From Atopobiaceae bacterium (GTDB taxonomy: Bacteria > Actinomycetota > Coriobacteriia > Coriobacteriales > Atopobiaceae), in NCBI GenBank assembly GCA_022483015.1, contig JAKVOB010000001.1, forward strand, positions 372,001 through 436,000: DNA of 64,000 bases. The letters run 5' to 3'. Under the pieces are notes generated by a model, which made no database searches, had not been told where the DNA came from, and was given only the letters and a program-made list of their open reading frames with translations. Of the stretch, positions 30,586 to 37,130 are shown in pieces. Both the position numbers and the translations under genes were made by a program. Numbering within the stretch: the stretch's first letter is position 1; each line of letters opens with the position of its first letter.

Positions 30586-30635
30586 TTACGTGGTGCCCTC
30601 GGGCGGATTCGAACCGCCGACACCAGGTTTAGGAA
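30586..30635. repeat. Left attachment site (attL), 50-bp repeat of the tRNA-Arg 3' end
   Basis: The 50 bp are identical to 37050-37099 and cover the CCA end, acceptor, T-arm and part of the anticodon arm of tRNA-Arg(CCT). The rest of the tRNA is missing here, so this copy is the displaced host fragment. Confidence 0.93.
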
Positions 30636-30765
30636 TTTTGTTCTCTTGGTTTTCGCAGACTTTTGTATGTTTCTACGACTTAGATTTTCCAATACGTCTA
30701 CCAGGTGTTACACGTCAGAATATGTAACCTTGTGTCTGTGTGTGTTAGAATGTTAGCGGTAAAAG

Positions 30766-30787
30766 TATGGCACGGATATGGCACAGG
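30766..30787. repeat. Left candidate integrase arm site
   Basis: Two copies of TATGGCAC, 11 bp apart (30766-30773 and 30777-30784), repeated in the same order near the right end at 36966-36987 with a single mismatch over 22 bp. They lie about 130 bp inside attL and just upstream of the integrase start. Confidence 0.6.
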
Positions 30788-30802
30788 ATGGAGGCGGCCA
30801 GG

Positions 30803-32161
30803 ATGTATGAGTACAGCTCCGGGAGTCTCAAACGCGGCAGGCCCTCGAAGTCCTTCAAGCGTGGGAGGTGGCGCGCGACGATCTGCTACCAGTCCGACGA
30901 CGGGGACGGAAGGGGACGCCGCCAGCACCAGATATCGAAGCTCCTCGAGTCCGAGGTGACTGGTGCAGCCAACGAGGGACGCCCGAAGGCAAAGAAGGAG
31001 CTCGAGAGTTGGCGCAGTGACATCATCGAGGCCAACACACGATGCGACGGCGTGGTCTCTAGGTTCACTGCCGATGCGGACGAACAGGGAATGAGGGGAT
31101 GGCCAGATCAGGACGACGTGGACGCGAGCGCGATGGTGCCCGACTATGTGGCCGACTTCATACGTGGGCTAAGCGGCACGGTATCTCCGACCACGCAGGA
31201 CAGCTACCGGGTAAGCAACATCTACATAAGGAACGGGCTCGGAGGGATCCACCTTGGGGACCTCACCATGAAGCAGGTCGAACGATGGAGGAAGGATCTT
31301 TCACGCCATGGTCGCAAGGATGGCGGGCCACTATCCGCTAGCAGCGTCACGAAGTCCCTCACGTTGCTCTCCGAGACCTGCAAGCACGCCGTCAAGCTCG
31401 GAGACATACCCTCCAACCCGTGCGACGGAGTTGGACGCCCGAAGAAGAAGCAGCCGGACCCGAACGCCTTGAGCGAGGACGACGTGGCAAGGCTGAACTC
31501 CGAGCTATCGAAGATGGGTCCGACACCTCTAGCCGTTGGGGCTTCGATAGCCCTCATGACCGGGATGCGCGAGGGCGAGGTGTGCGGACTCAGGTGGGAG
31601 GACGTAGACCTCACCGGCCGAACGCTTCAGGTGAGGAAGAGCGTCGGGCGCGCGAACGGAACGACCTACCTCAAGGAACCGAAGTCCAAGGCAAGCAGGC
31701 GCAAGCTCCCGATAGGGAAGACGTTGTTATCCGTTCTCGAGTCGCGCAGGGCGAGGATGCAGGCCGATTGCATGGCTGCCGGGATACCGTTCACCGGCGA
31801 GCTATACGTGATCGGATACAGGGACGGCAGATACCTCACTCCGCACACGCTCGGGGAGTACTGGGCACGGTTCGCAGCAGGAAATGAGGACCGGGAACCG
31901 TTCGTAGGGTCAAAGCACCGGGTCTGCACCTTCCATGACCTACGGCACACGTTCGCTACGAGGTCGATAGCGTCCAAGGTTGACGTGAAGACGGTATCGA
32001 GCTTCTTGGGACACCAGGACACCTCTATAACCCTCAACGTCTACGCAAGCTCAGACGACGACGCCAAACGCCGGGCGGCCGACATGATGGACGGCATCCT
32101 AGGTGCGACTGCGACCGAGGCAGACGTGATGCAACTCAGGACGGGCACGACGGGCGAGTAG
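30803..32161 (+). CDS. int: Tyrosine recombinase (integrase) of the tRNA-Arg element
   Basis: The 452-residue phage-type integrase has an N-terminal arm-binding region (residues about 1-60), a SAM-like core-binding domain (about 112-205) and a catalytic domain. The active-site residues are R256, H378, R381, H404 and Y414 in GMREGEVCGLRWED, FHDLRHTFAT, FLGHQD and LNVY. All are present, so it should be active. The start MYEYSSGSLKRGR at 30803 has GGAGGCGG about 7 nt upstream. In-frame ATGs at 30767 and 30788 are possible but lie in the repeated arm-site sequence. Confidence 0.95.
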   Translation: MYEYSSGSLKRGRPSKSFKRGRWRATICYQSDDGDGRGRRQHQISKLLESEVTGAANEGRPKAKKELESWRSDIIEANTRCDGVVSRFTADADEQGMRGWPDQDDVDASAMVPDYVADFIRGLSGTVSPTTQDSYRVSNIYIRNGLGGIHLGDLTMKQVERWRKDLSRHGRKDGGPLSASSVTKSLTLLSETCKHAVKLGDIPSNPCDGVGRPKKKQPDPNALSEDDVARLNSELSKMGPTPLAVGASIALMTGMREGEVCGLRWEDVDLTGRTLQVRKSVGRANGTTYLKEPKSKASRRKLPIGKTLLSVLESRRARMQADCMAAGIPFTGELYVIGYRDGRYLTPHTLGEYWARFAAGNEDREPFVGSKHRVCTFHDLRHTFATRSIASKVDVKTVSSFLGHQDTSITLNVYASSDDDAKRRAADMMDGILGATATEADVMQLRTGTTGE

Positions 32162-32255: not shown

Positions 32256-32702
32256 ATGAGCGGAACGACAGGAACCACGACGGTCGGCATGGACATGCGC
32301 GAGTTCGAACGGCAGCTCCAACACGTCCGGGACGCGGCAGCGACGTTAGGCGTCTTTGCCGTCTCCGAGGGAATTGATGGGGTGTATCCCGGATTCGGGA
32401 TGGTCCTGGAGGGGATGGCCGGGTCGCTCCTCGACACGACGAGGGCCATAGACGCGGCAGGATGGCAGCACGTGCCGAAGCGTCCTGTGCAGGATACGCA
32501 AGACGCCACGCAAGTTGACTTCAAGGCCCACGAGGAGGCACGGCACCGGGTCGAAGGTGCAACGAACATGTTGTTCGGGATGGCCGAGTCTGGGTTAGCC
32601 ATGCAACCAGAAACGGCAGCCGGCCTACAGGATATCGCCGAGATCCTATCTAACGCGACGTGCGACATGTACGGCGCTTGCCATGCGCCCGATGAGATTT
32701 GA
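32256..32702 (+). CDS. Hypothetical protein of the integrated element, 148 residues
   Basis: No family is recognised. The protein is soluble, mildly acidic and predicted mostly helical, with no clear motif. A good AGAGAGG ribosome site precedes MSGTTGTTT; the same GAGAGG-TATCACC-ATG arrangement precedes the gene at 35734, so the two may share a translation signal. It follows the integrase by 94 bp and is followed by a terminator at 32768-32814. Confidence 0.7.
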   Translation: MSGTTGTTTVGMDMREFERQLQHVRDAAATLGVFAVSEGIDGVYPGFGMVLEGMAGSLLDTTRAIDAAGWQHVPKRPVQDTQDATQVDFKAHEEARHRVEGATNMLFGMAESGLAMQPETAAGLQDIAEILSNATCDMYGACHAPDEI

Positions 32703-32767
32703 GGCCACAGAATCGCTTCTAAGGCCCTATCTTTCATGGCATCGACTGAGTGCCCACCATTAGCAAG

Positions 32768-32814
32768 GGAACGCCCACCGGTGGGCCGTGGCAGGCTGAG
32801 GCGGTGGGCGTTTC
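32768..32814 (+). terminator. Terminator after the integrase segment of the element
   Basis: AACGCCCACCG (32770-32780) pairs perfectly with CGGTGGGCGTT (32802-32812), extended by G-T and G-C pairs outward, and ends in TTTC. It separates the integrase unit from the repressor-like gene. Confidence 0.7.
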
Positions 32815-32860
32815 ACATATCATTGTACCCGTTGGGTCGGACGTGTTTGGGGTGGTGGCC

Positions 32861-33592
32861 GTGGCAGGCAAACAGGATGATGAGGCGTCACGCGACCCGC
32901 GCGAGGTGGCCGGACTCTGCAAGGCCATACCGAAGCATAACCTAGGGAAGCTGCTTCACAGACGGCGCGGCATGGTTGCCGAGTTCGCTGACGCCATGGG
33001 CGTTAACAGCAAGTACCCGAGCAAGTGGGTTAGTGGAGATAAGCGCATGACCAACGAACAGGTTGCGAAAGCGTCATGGCTTCTCGGGGTGCATCCCCTC
33101 TACCTTCTCGACATGAGGGAAGAGGAAGACCCGGCGATATGTTATATCCCATATGAGGATGAGGGATTATTGGTACCACGTGAAAGCATGATTGAAGCTG
33201 TAGGTTTCCTATCAATCCCAGCAATCGGGAAATACGATGAGCGATCACAAAGGTGGGAAACGCTCTATGGATTCACGGGCGGACCTACAGAGTGTGAATC
33301 GATGTGCGTCAATCCCGACATAGGCTTTGAGAGAAGTACGGAATACGTTCCGATGAGTACCGAGGAGGCCGAGAGCTTGCGCAAGGAGGCCATACGTTCT
33401 CTAGTAGCAATAGATGGAGACTTTAGAAACCCATCTGGAGTCATGTTTGCAATGCTAGAAATACTCCTATCAACTGCCGGCGGCAGCAACTGTGTTTTTG
33501 TATTTGACGACCTAGAAAAGCTATTCGTAGAGTCGGCCTACTCAAATGATGATGCCATGTGCACGGCCAGGGCGCGCCTTGCGAGTGATTAG
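32861..33592 (+). CDS. HTH protein, candidate repressor of the integrated element
   Basis: A lambda-repressor-like HTH lies near the N-terminus: LGKLLHRRRGMVAEFADAMGVNSKYPSKWVSGDKRMTNEQVAKASWLLGVHPLYLLD, about residues 28-84. The rest (about 160 residues) is not recognised. Composition falls to clearly lower GC after about 33100, unlike its neighbours, suggesting a separate origin. The start is uncertain. The frame is open back to 32750 but that stretch contains a terminator hairpin; GTG at 32861 with GGGGTGG upstream is preferred. It lies just before two operator-like dyads and is the obvious candidate to bind them. Confidence 0.7.
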   Translation: MAGKQDDEASRDPREVAGLCKAIPKHNLGKLLHRRRGMVAEFADAMGVNSKYPSKWVSGDKRMTNEQVAKASWLLGVHPLYLLDMREEEDPAICYIPYEDEGLLVPRESMIEAVGFLSIPAIGKYDERSQRWETLYGFTGGPTECESMCVNPDIGFERSTEYVPMSTEEAESLRKEAIRSLVAIDGDFRNPSGVMFAMLEILLSTAGGSNCVFVFDDLEKLFVESAYSNDDAMCTARARLASD

Positions 33593-33639
33593 CAACCGGC
33601 CGTGAACGGCATCCAAAGATTCTCGTGAAAAACTTTCGC

Positions 33640-33720
33640 GTGACCTTGTTAACGATGCAAGGTCACGCTTTCGTTTGATATAGCTAATTCCATGTGACCT
33701 CATGTGGTGGAGAAGGTCAC
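33640..33720. promoter_or_regulatory. Pair of identical-geometry operator dyads
   Basis: GTGACCT-N13-AGGTCAC occurs twice, at 33640-33666 and 33694-33720, with centres exactly 54 bp apart (about five helical turns). The first dyad extends to an 11-bp perfect arm (33638-33648 with 33658-33668). The dyads occupy the only large gap within the element, upstream of the Xis-like and replication genes. They are probably repressor operators. Confidence 0.75.
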
Positions 33721-33820
33721 GTTTCACATCATAACACCAGGTAGACAGCTTATTACCCCGTGTTAGTCTCTTGTTGTCTGCAGACGCGAACATAAATCTG
33801 ACAACGGAAAGGGGCACACG

Positions 33821-34042
33821 ATGACATACCCAACCATGACATTAGAAGAGTTCAATGAACTCGCGGCACTATGCACCCCAAAGCACGTGTCGGAGATGAG
33901 CGGGCTATCACTCCACACGGTTCAATGCATGGCCCACGACGGCGATCTCCCCACTGCTTGCAAGGTCGGGGGGAAGTGGCGATTCAACACGCAGGAGATG
34001 GGCCGCCTGTTCGGCATCATCACCGATTCGAGCACCGACTAG
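33821..34042 (+). CDS. Excisionase-like HTH protein
   Basis: The 73-residue protein has the compact MerR-like/HTH_17 fold of excisionases: CTPKHVSEMSGLSLHTVQCMAHDGDLPTACKVGGKWRFNTQEMGRLFG, with the characteristic wing GGKWRF. It may act as Xis for the integrase or as activator of the downstream replication genes. A GGAAAGGGG ribosome site lies upstream. The next gene starts 1 bp after its stop. Confidence 0.8.
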   Translation: MTYPTMTLEEFNELAALCTPKHVSEMSGLSLHTVQCMAHDGDLPTACKVGGKWRFNTQEMGRLFGIITDSSTD

Positions 34043-34043
34043 G

Positions 34044-34784
34044 ATGGCCGGATCTAGGGCCGTGGCTCCGACTGACGGCAGCGGATGGCCGGGAGACGGC
34101 ATCGAGCCGACTATCGAAGGTCACTATTCGAAGCTTGACGACGATTTGGCAGCGTGGCTCTCGTGCTGGACGTCATGGACGCGCCGCAACTTCAGGAGGG
34201 GGTGCGGGTCACGTCTCGAGCTCCTGCCGTTCGCAGCCTACAGGACGGAGGCCCACGACTCTATACGCGGCGAGAGGTTCACGTCCTTCTCGCAGTCGCA
34301 GGCCGCCGAGTGGATCGGATGCACGAAGCGTAACGCGGTCAACGTCATAGGCGACATGAGCACCGACGACCCCAACGAGAGGCCGGCCCCGCTCACTGTC
34401 GCAGCGAAACCGCCACGCGGGAACAACTCATGGAGCACCTGTTACACGTTCACCGATGCATCCTTCTCAGATGAAGCGAACGCCGTTTCAGGTTCACCTG
34501 ATGGAACAGAACCAGATGAAGCCATTCACGGTTTCGGTTCACCTGTAGCACCCCATGCCTCAGGTGAACTCTCGTGTACCTCAGGTGAACTCTCGTGCAC
34601 GTCAGGTGAACCGAGCAAACAGGTAATGCCTGGTAGAAGCATTGCCGATGTTCCCCCTATATCTCCTATAACTCCTACACCACCCACAGAACAAGACAGC
34701 CATGGACCCGCTGCAAGTAGTAGCGATGTCACTGGCCTATTAGGGGAGGGTTGCTCTGATGAGTTTGAGGAATATGACGAGTGA
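34044..34784 (+). CDS. Initiator-like protein with iterons inside its coding sequence
   Basis: Residues about 25-135 look like a winged-helix DNA-binding domain, with FTSFSQSQAAEWIGCTKRNAVNVIGDM as the HTH. Residues about 140-190 consist of repeated units (two 15-residue DEA...GSP copies, then SGELSCT copies) encoded by the DNA repeats at 34468-34611. The acidic C-terminus (DEFEEYDE) could contact the loader. The layout of N-terminal DNA-binding domain, repeat-coded linker and C-terminal partner region, followed by a DnaC-like gene, parallels lambda O. No homologue is named with confidence. The start is coupled to the preceding stop; there is no strong ribosome site. Confidence 0.65.
   Translation: MAGSRAVAPTDGSGWPGDGIEPTIEGHYSKLDDDLAAWLSCWTSWTRRNFRRGCGSRLELLPFAAYRTEAHDSIRGERFTSFSQSQAAEWIGCTKRNAVNVIGDMSTDDPNERPAPLTVAAKPPRGNNSWSTCYTFTDASFSDEANAVSGSPDGTEPDEAIHGFGSPVAPHASGELSCTSGELSCTSGEPSKQVMPGRSIADVPPISPITPTPPTEQDSHGPAASSSDVTGLLGEGCSDEFEEYDE
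34468..34611. repeat. Iteron array, candidate replication origin
   Basis: Five copies of the core CAGGTGAAC. Two are inverted (GTTCACCTG at 34492 and 34537), inside a 45-bp-period direct repeat that begins with CAGATGAAGC at 34468 and 34513. Three are direct (TCAGGTGAAC at 34560, 34581 and 34602) with an exact 21-bp period. An AT-richer stretch with repeated CTCCTATA-like units follows at about 34655-34685. Helically phased iterons next to such a stretch inside an initiator-like gene suggest an origin. Confidence 0.7.
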
Positions 34785-35664
34785 TGAGGCGAGGGCCAAG
34801 GCCGAGCAGCGGTCGGAGCTCGCGGCGAGGTGCGGCATCGAGTACGGGACCAACACCGACTCCCCGACCGATCCCGACGGGATATTTGCGTACATCACGA
34901 CAGAGGGAGGAGGCCCAGACATGACGGAGCTCGAGCGCGAGAAGGTCGAACTCATAATGAGTCACGGATTCCAAGGCAGCGTCGAAGCCGCCTTGGAGAT
35001 GGCCGCTGCCTATGATGCGTGGCCGAACCAGGCTTCTGGTTGGTACCTCGACAGGTTCGGGGTGAGGGCCGACGAGGAGGAGCCGGAAGCGATCCGGGCG
35101 GCGGCAGGCGTCCCTAACGCCCTCATGGGTGCCATGGACTCCTACGAACCGACCGAGGACATGGTGGCCTATGCCTTCGAGCTATCCGGGAACGCGACAC
35201 GCGGCGCATGGCTGGTTGGCAGCGACTACGCGACCATGGCGGCCGCATGGGTCTCAGGCATGGCACACGGCAGCCGCTACGTTGACGTGCCCGAGCTGTT
35301 GGCGGACTTCGAGGCCATGTCCCGCTTCGGGCCAGAGGGCGCGAGGAACAGGGCGAACGCCATGAGGGGGCCGTCCGTGTTGGTCCTGAATGCCATTGAC
35401 GGCGCTCAATGGACCCGGCAATCCGTGGCACTTGTGGCACCGGTGATCAGGTATCGGCGTATGGCATCGCTGCCAACGGTGGTGACGGCAACCACGAGGG
35501 TTTCGGGCGTCGCGTCCCACCTCATGCAGACCATAAGCGGTGACGATGCGCGCAAGCAGGCTAACGACATGCTTCGAGACCTCCTCGCGGGAATGGGCCG
35601 CACGAAGGAGGAGCGCAGGTCCCACTTCATAGAGTGCGGCGCGGGCGGTGATGCGGTGGCATGA
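34759..35664 (+). CDS. DnaC-like helicase-loader homologue with degenerate ATPase motifs
   Basis: Residues about 117-260 align by eye with DnaC/IstB-type AAA+ loaders: a GVPNALMGAMDSYE entry segment, TRGAWLVGS at the P-loop strand, SRYVDVPELLADFE, GPSVLVLNAIDG at Walker B, VIRYRR and LPTVVTATTRVSG at sensor 1. The P-loop GxxGxGKT is replaced by GSDYATMAA (154-162), and the Walker B acidic pair is NA. It is thus probably unable to hydrolyse ATP. The start has GGGGAGGG about 8 nt upstream and overlaps the initiator gene by 26 bp, showing translational coupling. Confidence 0.65.
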   Translation: MSLRNMTSDEARAKAEQRSELAARCGIEYGTNTDSPTDPDGIFAYITTEGGGPDMTELEREKVELIMSHGFQGSVEAALEMAAAYDAWPNQASGWYLDRFGVRADEEEPEAIRAAAGVPNALMGAMDSYEPTEDMVAYAFELSGNATRGAWLVGSDYATMAAAWVSGMAHGSRYVDVPELLADFEAMSRFGPEGARNRANAMRGPSVLVLNAIDGAQWTRQSVALVAPVIRYRRMASLPTVVTATTRVSGVASHLMQTISGDDARKQANDMLRDLLAGMGRTKEERRSHFIECGAGGDAVA

Positions 35665-35699: not shown

Positions 35700-35733
35700 C
35701 TGGTAGATGTTGACCGACAGAGAGGATATCACC

Positions 35734-35976
35734 ATGAATGGCACAACGACCCATGAGACGTGGCGGACGGAGATCAGGAACGGGAGGGACGCCTACAGGG
35801 CGGCGATCAGGTACGTGGTCAACGAGCTCCGAGCGACCGACTTCTCAGACACGGACGAGGCCGACGAGACCCTGGGTGACGTGTATTCGATCCTGGAGAG
35901 CGTCGTGAGCACGGAGAGGTTCGATACCGGGACCATGACGCACGAAGGTCACGACGCCGTATTCGTTCTCCGTTAG
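35734..35976 (+). CDS. Small hypothetical protein of the element, 80 residues
   Basis: An acidic, helical-looking protein (RNGRDAYRAAIRYVVNELRATDF...DEADETLGDVYSILESVV) with no recognised family. The start is set by AGAGAGG upstream in the same ribosome-site context as the gene at 32256. It is the first of three small genes at the right end of the element, where satellites and islands often keep accessory functions. Confidence 0.65.
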   Translation: MNGTTTHETWRTEIRNGRDAYRAAIRYVVNELRATDFSDTDEADETLGDVYSILESVVSTERFDTGTMTHEGHDAVFVLR

Positions 35977-36007
35977 GTAGCAGTCCACATCAACGAGAGG
36001 TATGAGC

Positions 36008-36496
36008 ATGAAGTATCTGAAGAGGTCTCACCCGGACGGCAGCGGATCAATCGGAAGGTGGGACGAGGTCAGCAAGAAGGAGTTCAAGGCCGCATACGGC
36101 AGGAAGATGGCGTCGGTATGCTCCGACGAGGACAACTCCGACGTGTCTGTCAGCTCCGACGAGGAGCAGGACTACATGAGGTACGTCTCATGGAGGATGG
36201 GTCACAAGTACGATCTCATGCCGGACGCCCTCACGCAGCCTGGTAAGGACCTCGCATGGGACCCGAGGCCACTGTCGGAGGCCGAAACCTCCCTCGAGGC
36301 GTACCAGAAGTACGCGGCCGAGTGCGACTCGGAGGCCGAGGCCGACGAGCTGATGGCACAGTCGAAGCGTGAGGAGGCCGAGAGGTGGCGGAACAAGGTG
36401 GGGCCGACGAGGGACAGCGTCGCAAGGCTCACGTCAGAGCGTGACAGGCTGTGGTCAAAGTACGAGTCTACGGTGTTCGGGGACGAGGAGGTCTAG
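36008..36496 (+). CDS. Hypothetical protein of the element, 162 residues
   Basis: No family is recognised. The protein is hydrophilic and charged, with a Ser/Asp-rich segment (CSDEDNSDVSVSSDEEQD) near the N-terminal third and a likely helical C-terminus (EAEADELMAQSKREEAERWRNKV). GAGAGG lies about 7 nt before the ATG at 36008; an ATG two codons earlier (36002) is too close to the ribosome site. It is followed 2 bp later by the next gene, so the two are coupled. Confidence 0.65.
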   Translation: MKYLKRSHPDGSGSIGRWDEVSKKEFKAAYGRKMASVCSDEDNSDVSVSSDEEQDYMRYVSWRMGHKYDLMPDALTQPGKDLAWDPRPLSEAETSLEAYQKYAAECDSEAEADELMAQSKREEAERWRNKVGPTRDSVARLTSERDRLWSKYESTVFGDEEV

Positions 36497-36498
36497 GT

Positions 36499-36822
36499 AT
36501 GGAGCTTATCGACGAGAACAAGGTCAGGGATCTCGAGAAGAGAGCTAAGGCCCTGCGATACGAAGCGGACTCATACGACGAGAAGGCACGGGCACACGCT
36601 GCCAAGGCAAGGTCGCTCGAGCGCTCGAAGGAGTCTGTCGAATGGCTCGAGGGACGTATCTCCGAGCACGAGAAGAGGGAGAAGGAGTGCCGCGCTTCGG
36701 CCAAGGCGTCACGTTCCGAGCTTGCCAAGGTCTCGAAGATGCTCGAGCGCGAGAAGGGACGGCCGTCAAACTACGACGACGCCCTCATGGGAATGATCGA
36801 CGAGGCGGACGACCCGAGATGA
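36499..36822 (+). CDS. Small coiled-coil protein of the element, 107 residues
   Basis: Almost the whole protein is charged heptad-like sequence (KVRDLEKRAKALRYEADSYDEKARAHAAKARSLERSKE...), a long coiled coil ending in a short acidic tail. GGAGG lies 8 nt before the start. Its role is unknown. Short coiled-coil proteins at element ends can be structural, partition-like or regulatory, and nothing in the sequence decides between these. Confidence 0.65.
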   Translation: MELIDENKVRDLEKRAKALRYEADSYDEKARAHAAKARSLERSKESVEWLEGRISEHEKREKECRASAKASRSELAKVSKMLEREKGRPSNYDDALMGMIDEADDPR

Positions 36823-36965
36823 GAGTCGGGTGGGGGTACTTTATTTGCGGGCCGTGGCATGACTCCCGCCGCTAGTCATAGTTTCCCCCCGCCCAGGAGT
36901 AATTAGTGGGTAGTGTCAATTTCCCAAGGCGTAAATCAGCGAGATTCGCCAAATTATCGTGAATG

Positions 36966-36987
36966 TATGGCACAGATATGGCACAGG
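36966..36987. repeat. Right candidate integrase arm site
   Basis: Two TATGGCAC copies 11 bp apart (36966-36973 and 36977-36984), matching the left copy at 30766-30787 in the same orientation. It lies 62 bp inside attR in otherwise non-coding sequence (36823-37049). Confidence 0.6.
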
Positions 36988-37049: not shown

Positions 37050-37099
37050 TTACGTGGTGCCCTCGGGCGGATTCGAACCGCCGACACCAGGTTTAGGAA
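37050..37099. repeat. Right attachment site (attR) within intact tRNA-Arg
   Basis: This is the second copy of the 50-bp att repeat. Here it is continuous with the 5' half of the tRNA, so integration restored a complete gene whose 3' half comes from the element. Confidence 0.93.
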
Positions 37100-37130
37100 A
37101 CCTGTGCTCTATCCCCTGAGCTACGAGGGC
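37055..37130 (-). tRNA. tRNA-Arg (anticodon CCT)
   Basis: Minus-strand cloverleaf of 76 nt: acceptor GCCCTCG/CGAGGGC, D-arm GCTCAGGGGATAGAGC, anticodon stem CAGGT/ACCTG with loop TTCCTAA (anticodon CCT), T-arm GGCGGTTCGAATCCGCC and encoded CCA. It reads AGG arginine codons and is the integration site of the neighbouring element. Confidence 0.96.

Follow-up and report, generated by a model that had tools for sequence, protein, structure and literature searches.

Sequence comparison confirms that the gene at positions 34759-35664 of the window (the whole 64,000-nucleotide stretch of DNA that was analysed) encodes an AAA+ protein of the DnaC/DnaI type whose ATPase site is no longer usable. Its probable role is that of a nucleotide-independent (pseudo-ATPase) loader, retained in the P-like role alongside an O-like initiator and delivering host DnaB to the origin of a small mobile element integrated in the genome of a gut-type actinobacterium. 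Because in vitro loading is not strictly ATP-dependent, the purpose of the DnaC-type ATP cycle is an old point of debate, and a lineage in which the ATPase has been erased, with near relatives that retain it, makes this question testable on natural pairs. A search of the open literature found no report of a natural DnaC family without ATPase.

Organization of the element and its putative replication module

Computational analysis places the loader gene in a 6464-bp unit that is enclosed by 61-bp direct repeats at 30586 and 37050 and ends at the 3' end of tRNA-Arg(CCT). The order within it is integrase, 148-aa open reading frame (ORF), repressor-like gene, HTH_17 gene, putative initiator, loader and small ORFs:

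30586-30646, no strand: left attachment repeat of 61 bp (93% identity with the right one)
30767-32161, + strand: tyrosine integrase, 464 aa (PF00589)
32256-32702, + strand: 148-aa ORF, no assigned function
32750-33592, + strand: regulator of 280 aa resembling repressors (matches to PHROG transcriptional repressors are weak)
33821-34042, + strand: HTH_17 excisionase-like protein, 73 aa
34044-34784, + strand: putative replication initiator, 246 aa (position and iterons; no Pfam or PHROG match)
34492-34611, + strand: five iterons [T/A]CAGGTGAAC, two inverted and three direct at 21-bp spacing; putative origin
34743-34750, + strand: ribosome-binding site GGGGAGGG of the loader, within the initiator ORF
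34759-35664, + strand: degenerate DnaC/DnaI-type loader, 301 aa (ATG at 34759, stop ends at 35664)
35707-35976, + strand: 89-aa ORF, cargo downstream of the loader, no assigned function
36002-36822, + strand: a pair of short ORFs (164 and 123 aa) that overlap each other, no assigned function
37050-37110, no strand: right attachment repeat, within tRNA-Arg(CCT)
37055-37130, - strand: tRNA-Arg(CCT), containing the right attachment repeat

No relaxase, capsid or primase family was recognized in the element, and neither a second loader nor a transposase was seen in it. Sister elements of 5.5-6.5 kb follow the same plan, have homologous integrases and sit at tRNA ends: G157 (5909 bp, tRNA-Lys), G176 (6356 bp, tRNA-Thr), G039 (6279 bp, tRNA-Thr) and G273 (5544 bp, tRNA-Met), the last with an intact loader. 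Just inside the attachment sites lies a 29-bp direct repeat (90%; 30759-30787 and 36959-36987) that holds a doubled ATGGCAC, and a comparable repeat pair, ATGCACCAAA, occurs in G273; the 29-bp repeats are probably integrase arm-binding sites. The interval between the repressor-like and excisionase-like genes holds CAAGGTCACG motifs, repeated and in inverted orientation (33638-33724), which are possibly operator sites.

The initiator takes its name solely from its gene position and the five iterons (TCAGGTGAAC), which are packed into 120 bp of its gene. As a control, a 9-mer with three copies in 300 bp was absent from most mononucleotide shuffles. Different iterons are found in the initiator gene or just behind it in G157, G176 and G163 (5, 6 and 6 copies, respectively), and no clear array was seen in G039, G273 and G198. 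By analogy, the set of initiator, iterons and loader resembles a lambda O/P-like replication module.

The original prediction described the loader gene as intact and coupled to the initiator gene, and both points hold: the 301-aa frame is open, the GGGGAGGG site precedes it, and its ORF overlaps that of the initiator by 26 nt. GC content by codon position is 0.62/0.52/0.79 and neighbouring genes are alike. This coding-type third position, together with frames of about 300 aa and protein-level similarity in four genomes, also bears out the view that the gene is no pseudogene. The loss of every catalytic residue would fit a relic, a replication gene without function in an element under decay, but the same frames, similarity and codon signature, the good ribosome-binding site and the intact state of integrase, attachment repeats and iterons all speak against it, and we regard it as very improbable.

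Homologues, fold and catalytic motifs

Among 395 genomes of the order, one clear homologue of the window protein was found (L002; 36% identity over residues 78-294, E 2.7e-32), and its locus was recovered a second time as L060 in Olsenella uli strain An733. A profile of the window protein and L002 led to L032, and L032 in turn to L070, L071, L072 and L073. Three of these, L002, L032 and L070, are degenerate as the window protein is, and they lie in sister elements of other genomes of the order. The four degenerate homologues, each of about 300 aa and from four genomes, have the gene order HTH_17, initiator, loader throughout; L071, L072 and L073 have intact motifs, with gene neighbours as in the degenerate loci. 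An exhaustive family search in 140 genomes gave five members at E < 1e-80 (the window protein, L002, L032, L070 and L071), with generic intact DnaC-like proteins starting at E ~1e-28; identity between the window protein and generic intact loaders is below 25%. No further family member was found at E 1e-20 in 396 genomes drawn from the phylum.

The window protein matched no Pfam or PHROG family, even at an E cut-off of 10, and on its own it gave no match in phage (tblastn), viral contigs or genome contigs; tblastn against plasmids returned a single weak DnaI match (E 0.04). Viral scans with L002, L032 and L070 as queries were empty, and the A1 query had no match in viral contigs. MT837445.1, a human faecal contig of 6.9 kb with a match to L032, was weighed as a packaged relative and ruled out: its DnaC is an ordinary phage-type one with a zinc domain, and a large recombination-type ORF is also present.

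A DnaC/IstB-type AAA+ fold had been proposed from the strand order and flanking segments, and profile comparison and structure prediction both agree with it. A phmmer search of the PDB with the window protein aligned its residues 143-269 with DnaI 2w58 (E 0.0036) and with the helicase loader 5he8 (E 0.012). With a profile built from three degenerate members only, the ten best PDB matches were DnaI, DnaC and IstB chains, the top five being 2qgz, 2w58 (DnaI), 4m4w (DnaI), 5he8 and 6qel (E. coli DnaC) at E values from 8e-6 to 9e-4; this profile is the least biased evidence of homology. An AlphaFold model from the 33-row alignment reached pLDDT 81 and pTM 0.67 with a core above 90, and leans on the intact DnaC relatives that its input alignment includes. 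A family-only model (pLDDT 47) was too poor for use, though it places helices and strands in the same succession as the later model. In VIA-align comparisons the model matched 5he8 (Z 17.9, rmsd 2.4, 155 aligned), DnaI 2w58 (Z 17.8, rmsd 2.6, 170 aligned) and E. coli DnaC 6qem (Z 15.1, rmsd 4.2, 167 aligned), with further fold matches to IstB (Z 16.2), Aquifex DnaC (Z 15.3) and 3ecc. Neither lambda P nor DciA was among the fold matches listed, in a search that barely covered the N-terminal part.

The N-terminal region is the least conserved part of the loader (21% between window protein and L002). It lacks the zinc cluster CxxC...CxC found in many intact relatives (for example, L005, L036 and L049) and has one cysteine only, C26. 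Of the ssDNA-binding tetrad of DnaC, only the Phe146-like aromatic (F190) is recognizable, at a position of uncertain register where the other degenerate members have F or Y. Two near-identical intact DnaC-like genes of 300 aa with a zinc N terminus (L124, 5353-6255; L125, 6155-7057) were also seen, in two copies of one conjugation-type element in the same genome.

Catalytic motifs were compared in a 33-sequence alignment that sets the four degenerate proteins against 29 intact DnaC-like ones from this bacterial order. It places the former motifs of the window protein as follows:

35218-35244, + strand: former Walker A GSDYATMAA, residues 154-162
35389-35394, + strand: N211-A212 of LVLNAID, where relatives have the Walker B acidic pair
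35488-35493, + strand: former sensor 1, A244-T245 (relatives: T-S-N/Q)
35563-35568, + strand: former arginine-finger position, N269-D270 (relatives: S-R)

All 29 intact proteins have G-x-x-G-x-x-K-T/S at the P-loop and R at the finger position, and nearly all keep the Walker B D-D, mostly as LVLDDLG (L072 has DG). In all four degenerate proteins Walker A is gone, as are the finger arginine and the second acid of Walker B. Their P-loops read GGGDRAS in L002, GGSDTERT in L032 and GGNELERT in L070, with R in place of the P-loop K in the last two; the intact ones read GGTGAGKT in L071 and L072 and GGSGAGKS in L073. The loss of both Walker motifs that the original prediction reported for the window protein (GSDYATMAA; LVLNAID, with both acids gone) is thus confirmed, and it extends further, to sensor 1 (TAT where relatives have TSN or TSQ), to the arginine finger and to a P-loop two residues shorter than the GGTGAGKT or GGSGAGKS of intact relatives. 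Sequencing error as the source of the loss is ruled out, because the nearest homologues share it; intact ATPase motifs are confined to more distant ones. Neither outcome that would have overturned the original prediction, a non-AAA+ fold or intact motifs in close homologues, was thus seen. In the DnaC-like proteins L005, L037 and L003 the P-loops read GDNGTLKT, GPNGTYKT and GGNGTKKS, with the glycine preceding K replaced, possibly an intermediate stage.

The same losses bear on whether the protein might act as a dominant-negative regulator that joins intact DnaC-like proteins from competing elements in mixed assemblies and poisons their loading. Potential partners exist, in that the window's assembly has two intact DnaC-like genes (G000:C1:945604 and 1998283) beside TraG/VirD4-like ORFs. 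Matching subunit interfaces are unlikely, however, because the catalytic and arginine-finger sides are both lost; the low identity to generic intact loaders and the position of the gene, which is that of a replication loader, add to the case against this reading, and we consider it very unlikely.

Relaxed constraint and the number of losses

Identity between the window protein and L002 is 32% in the catalytic columns and 36% in the rest of the core, and between L032 and L070 it is 44% and 35%, respectively. In seven intact pairs the corresponding percentages are 56/27, 71/23, 53/23, 76/50, 94/59, 71/38 and 85/67. Relaxation is specific to the catalytic columns: degenerate pairs are little or no better conserved there than elsewhere, whereas intact pairs are far better conserved.

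A tree of the loaders, in which branches are long, requires two changes, and a single clade of all four degenerate members is not rejected (AU p 0.158). The tree favours two ATPase losses, and one loss is also compatible with the data. The similarly degenerate relatives suggest that ATP-free loading evolved in these elements, perhaps twice. The broader proposal, that AAA+ loaders turned into nucleotide-independent loaders at least twice independently in one order while still serving the iteron origins of small tRNA-integrated elements, is tentative, and we put it at a little under an even chance.

Proposed loader function and comparison with known systems

A loader without ATPase is mechanistically possible, because E. 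coli DnaC opens DnaB and loads it in vitro without ATP binding or the ATPase domain; its Walker A mutant K112R loads as well as wild type, with ATP turnover raising efficiency and activation (PMC8213410). Of the two functions that the original prediction offered, loader and decoy, we favour the former for the window protein because ATPase-dead DnaC loads DnaB in vitro (PMC8213410) and because the rest of the module (initiator, iteron origin and coupling) is intact and conserved. Against it count several E. coli DnaC ATPase mutants with poorer loading or weak DnaB activation (PMC8213410). In such a cycle, integrase and excisionase would free the element from the tRNA gene, and the initiator would then open the origin by binding to the five iterons that its gene contains. 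With the presumed helicase-binding region at its N terminus, the loader, translated from the overlapping frame, would hold host DnaB and open it; transfer of DnaB to the exposed single strand would need no ATP cycle, and the loader would leave through DnaB translocation or primase rather than hydrolysis. A loader of this kind would suggest a route from AAA+ loaders to ATP-free loaders, and would offer Coriobacteriia-type bacteria, for which genetic tools are few, a compact module of initiator, loader and origin.

The protein might instead be a decoy or inhibitor: by binding up host DnaB, or the loader of DnaB, it would block or slow the replication of host or phage, which would benefit the element. 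Trapping of DnaB is conceivable for an AAA+ scaffold that lacks ATPase; DnaC keeps the DnaB ring open, and phage 77 ORF104 hijacks the same step (PMC4887207). Such a role would leave the element without a loader of its own, and the gene overlaps the initiator behind the iteron origin, where module relatives carry an intact loader. We therefore judge this unlikely; a decoy would be a new mode of replication interference. It is also rather improbable that the former AAA+ domain is an architectural bridge, merely linking initiator, DNA, DnaB or a resident loader with no ring opening. The poorly conserved N-terminal region is no proof of a ring-opening domain, and DciA (PF05258) was not detected in the window's assembly, with one of 41 family genomes and seven control genomes giving a match; a divergent DciA in the host is possible, and the only intact DnaC-like genes found in this assembly adjoin conjugation-type genes. 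DnaC-type opening is independent of the ATPase, though, so that ATPase loss is no sign of lost opening (PMC8213410).

Read as a loader, the window protein can be set beside several known systems. With DnaC and DnaI (6qel/6qem; Bacillus/Geobacillus 4m4w/2w58) it shares the AAA+ core, the order of strands and helices, the linker motif AGVP and an initiator-adjacent position in mobile elements, but it lacks Walker A, Walker B, sensor 1, the arginine finger and the zinc-type N-terminal domain. DnaC K112R and helicase-binding-domain constructs (PMC8213410) are likewise loaders without ATP turnover, and the P-loop K to R change of K112R occurs naturally in L032 and L070; unlike these laboratory constructs, the window protein is natural, with all motifs lost and long evolutionary retention. 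IstB, the IS21 transposition ATPase, belongs to the same AAA+ branch, and its family PF01695 matches L032 weakly, L071 just above the cut-off and L072 clearly. The window protein differs from IstB in having no PF01695 match, no adjacent IstA, a replication context and a lost ATPase. DciA is similar in concept as an ATP-independent loader, but it is KH-like and not AAA+; the window protein has no PF05258 match at E up to 10, and a divergent domain is possible.

In lambda, the iterons lie within the O gene and the P gene follows directly behind, with P lacking an AAA+ ATPase domain. The likeness of the element to O/P lies in the iterons inside the initiator gene and the loader directly downstream. 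Lambda P has no sequence or structural kinship to DnaC (PMC6391071), whereas the window protein is an AAA+ derivative; if repeated conversion to nucleotide-independent loaders did occur, these proteins would form a natural class of ATP-free DnaC descendants, in their logic midway between DnaC and lambda P.
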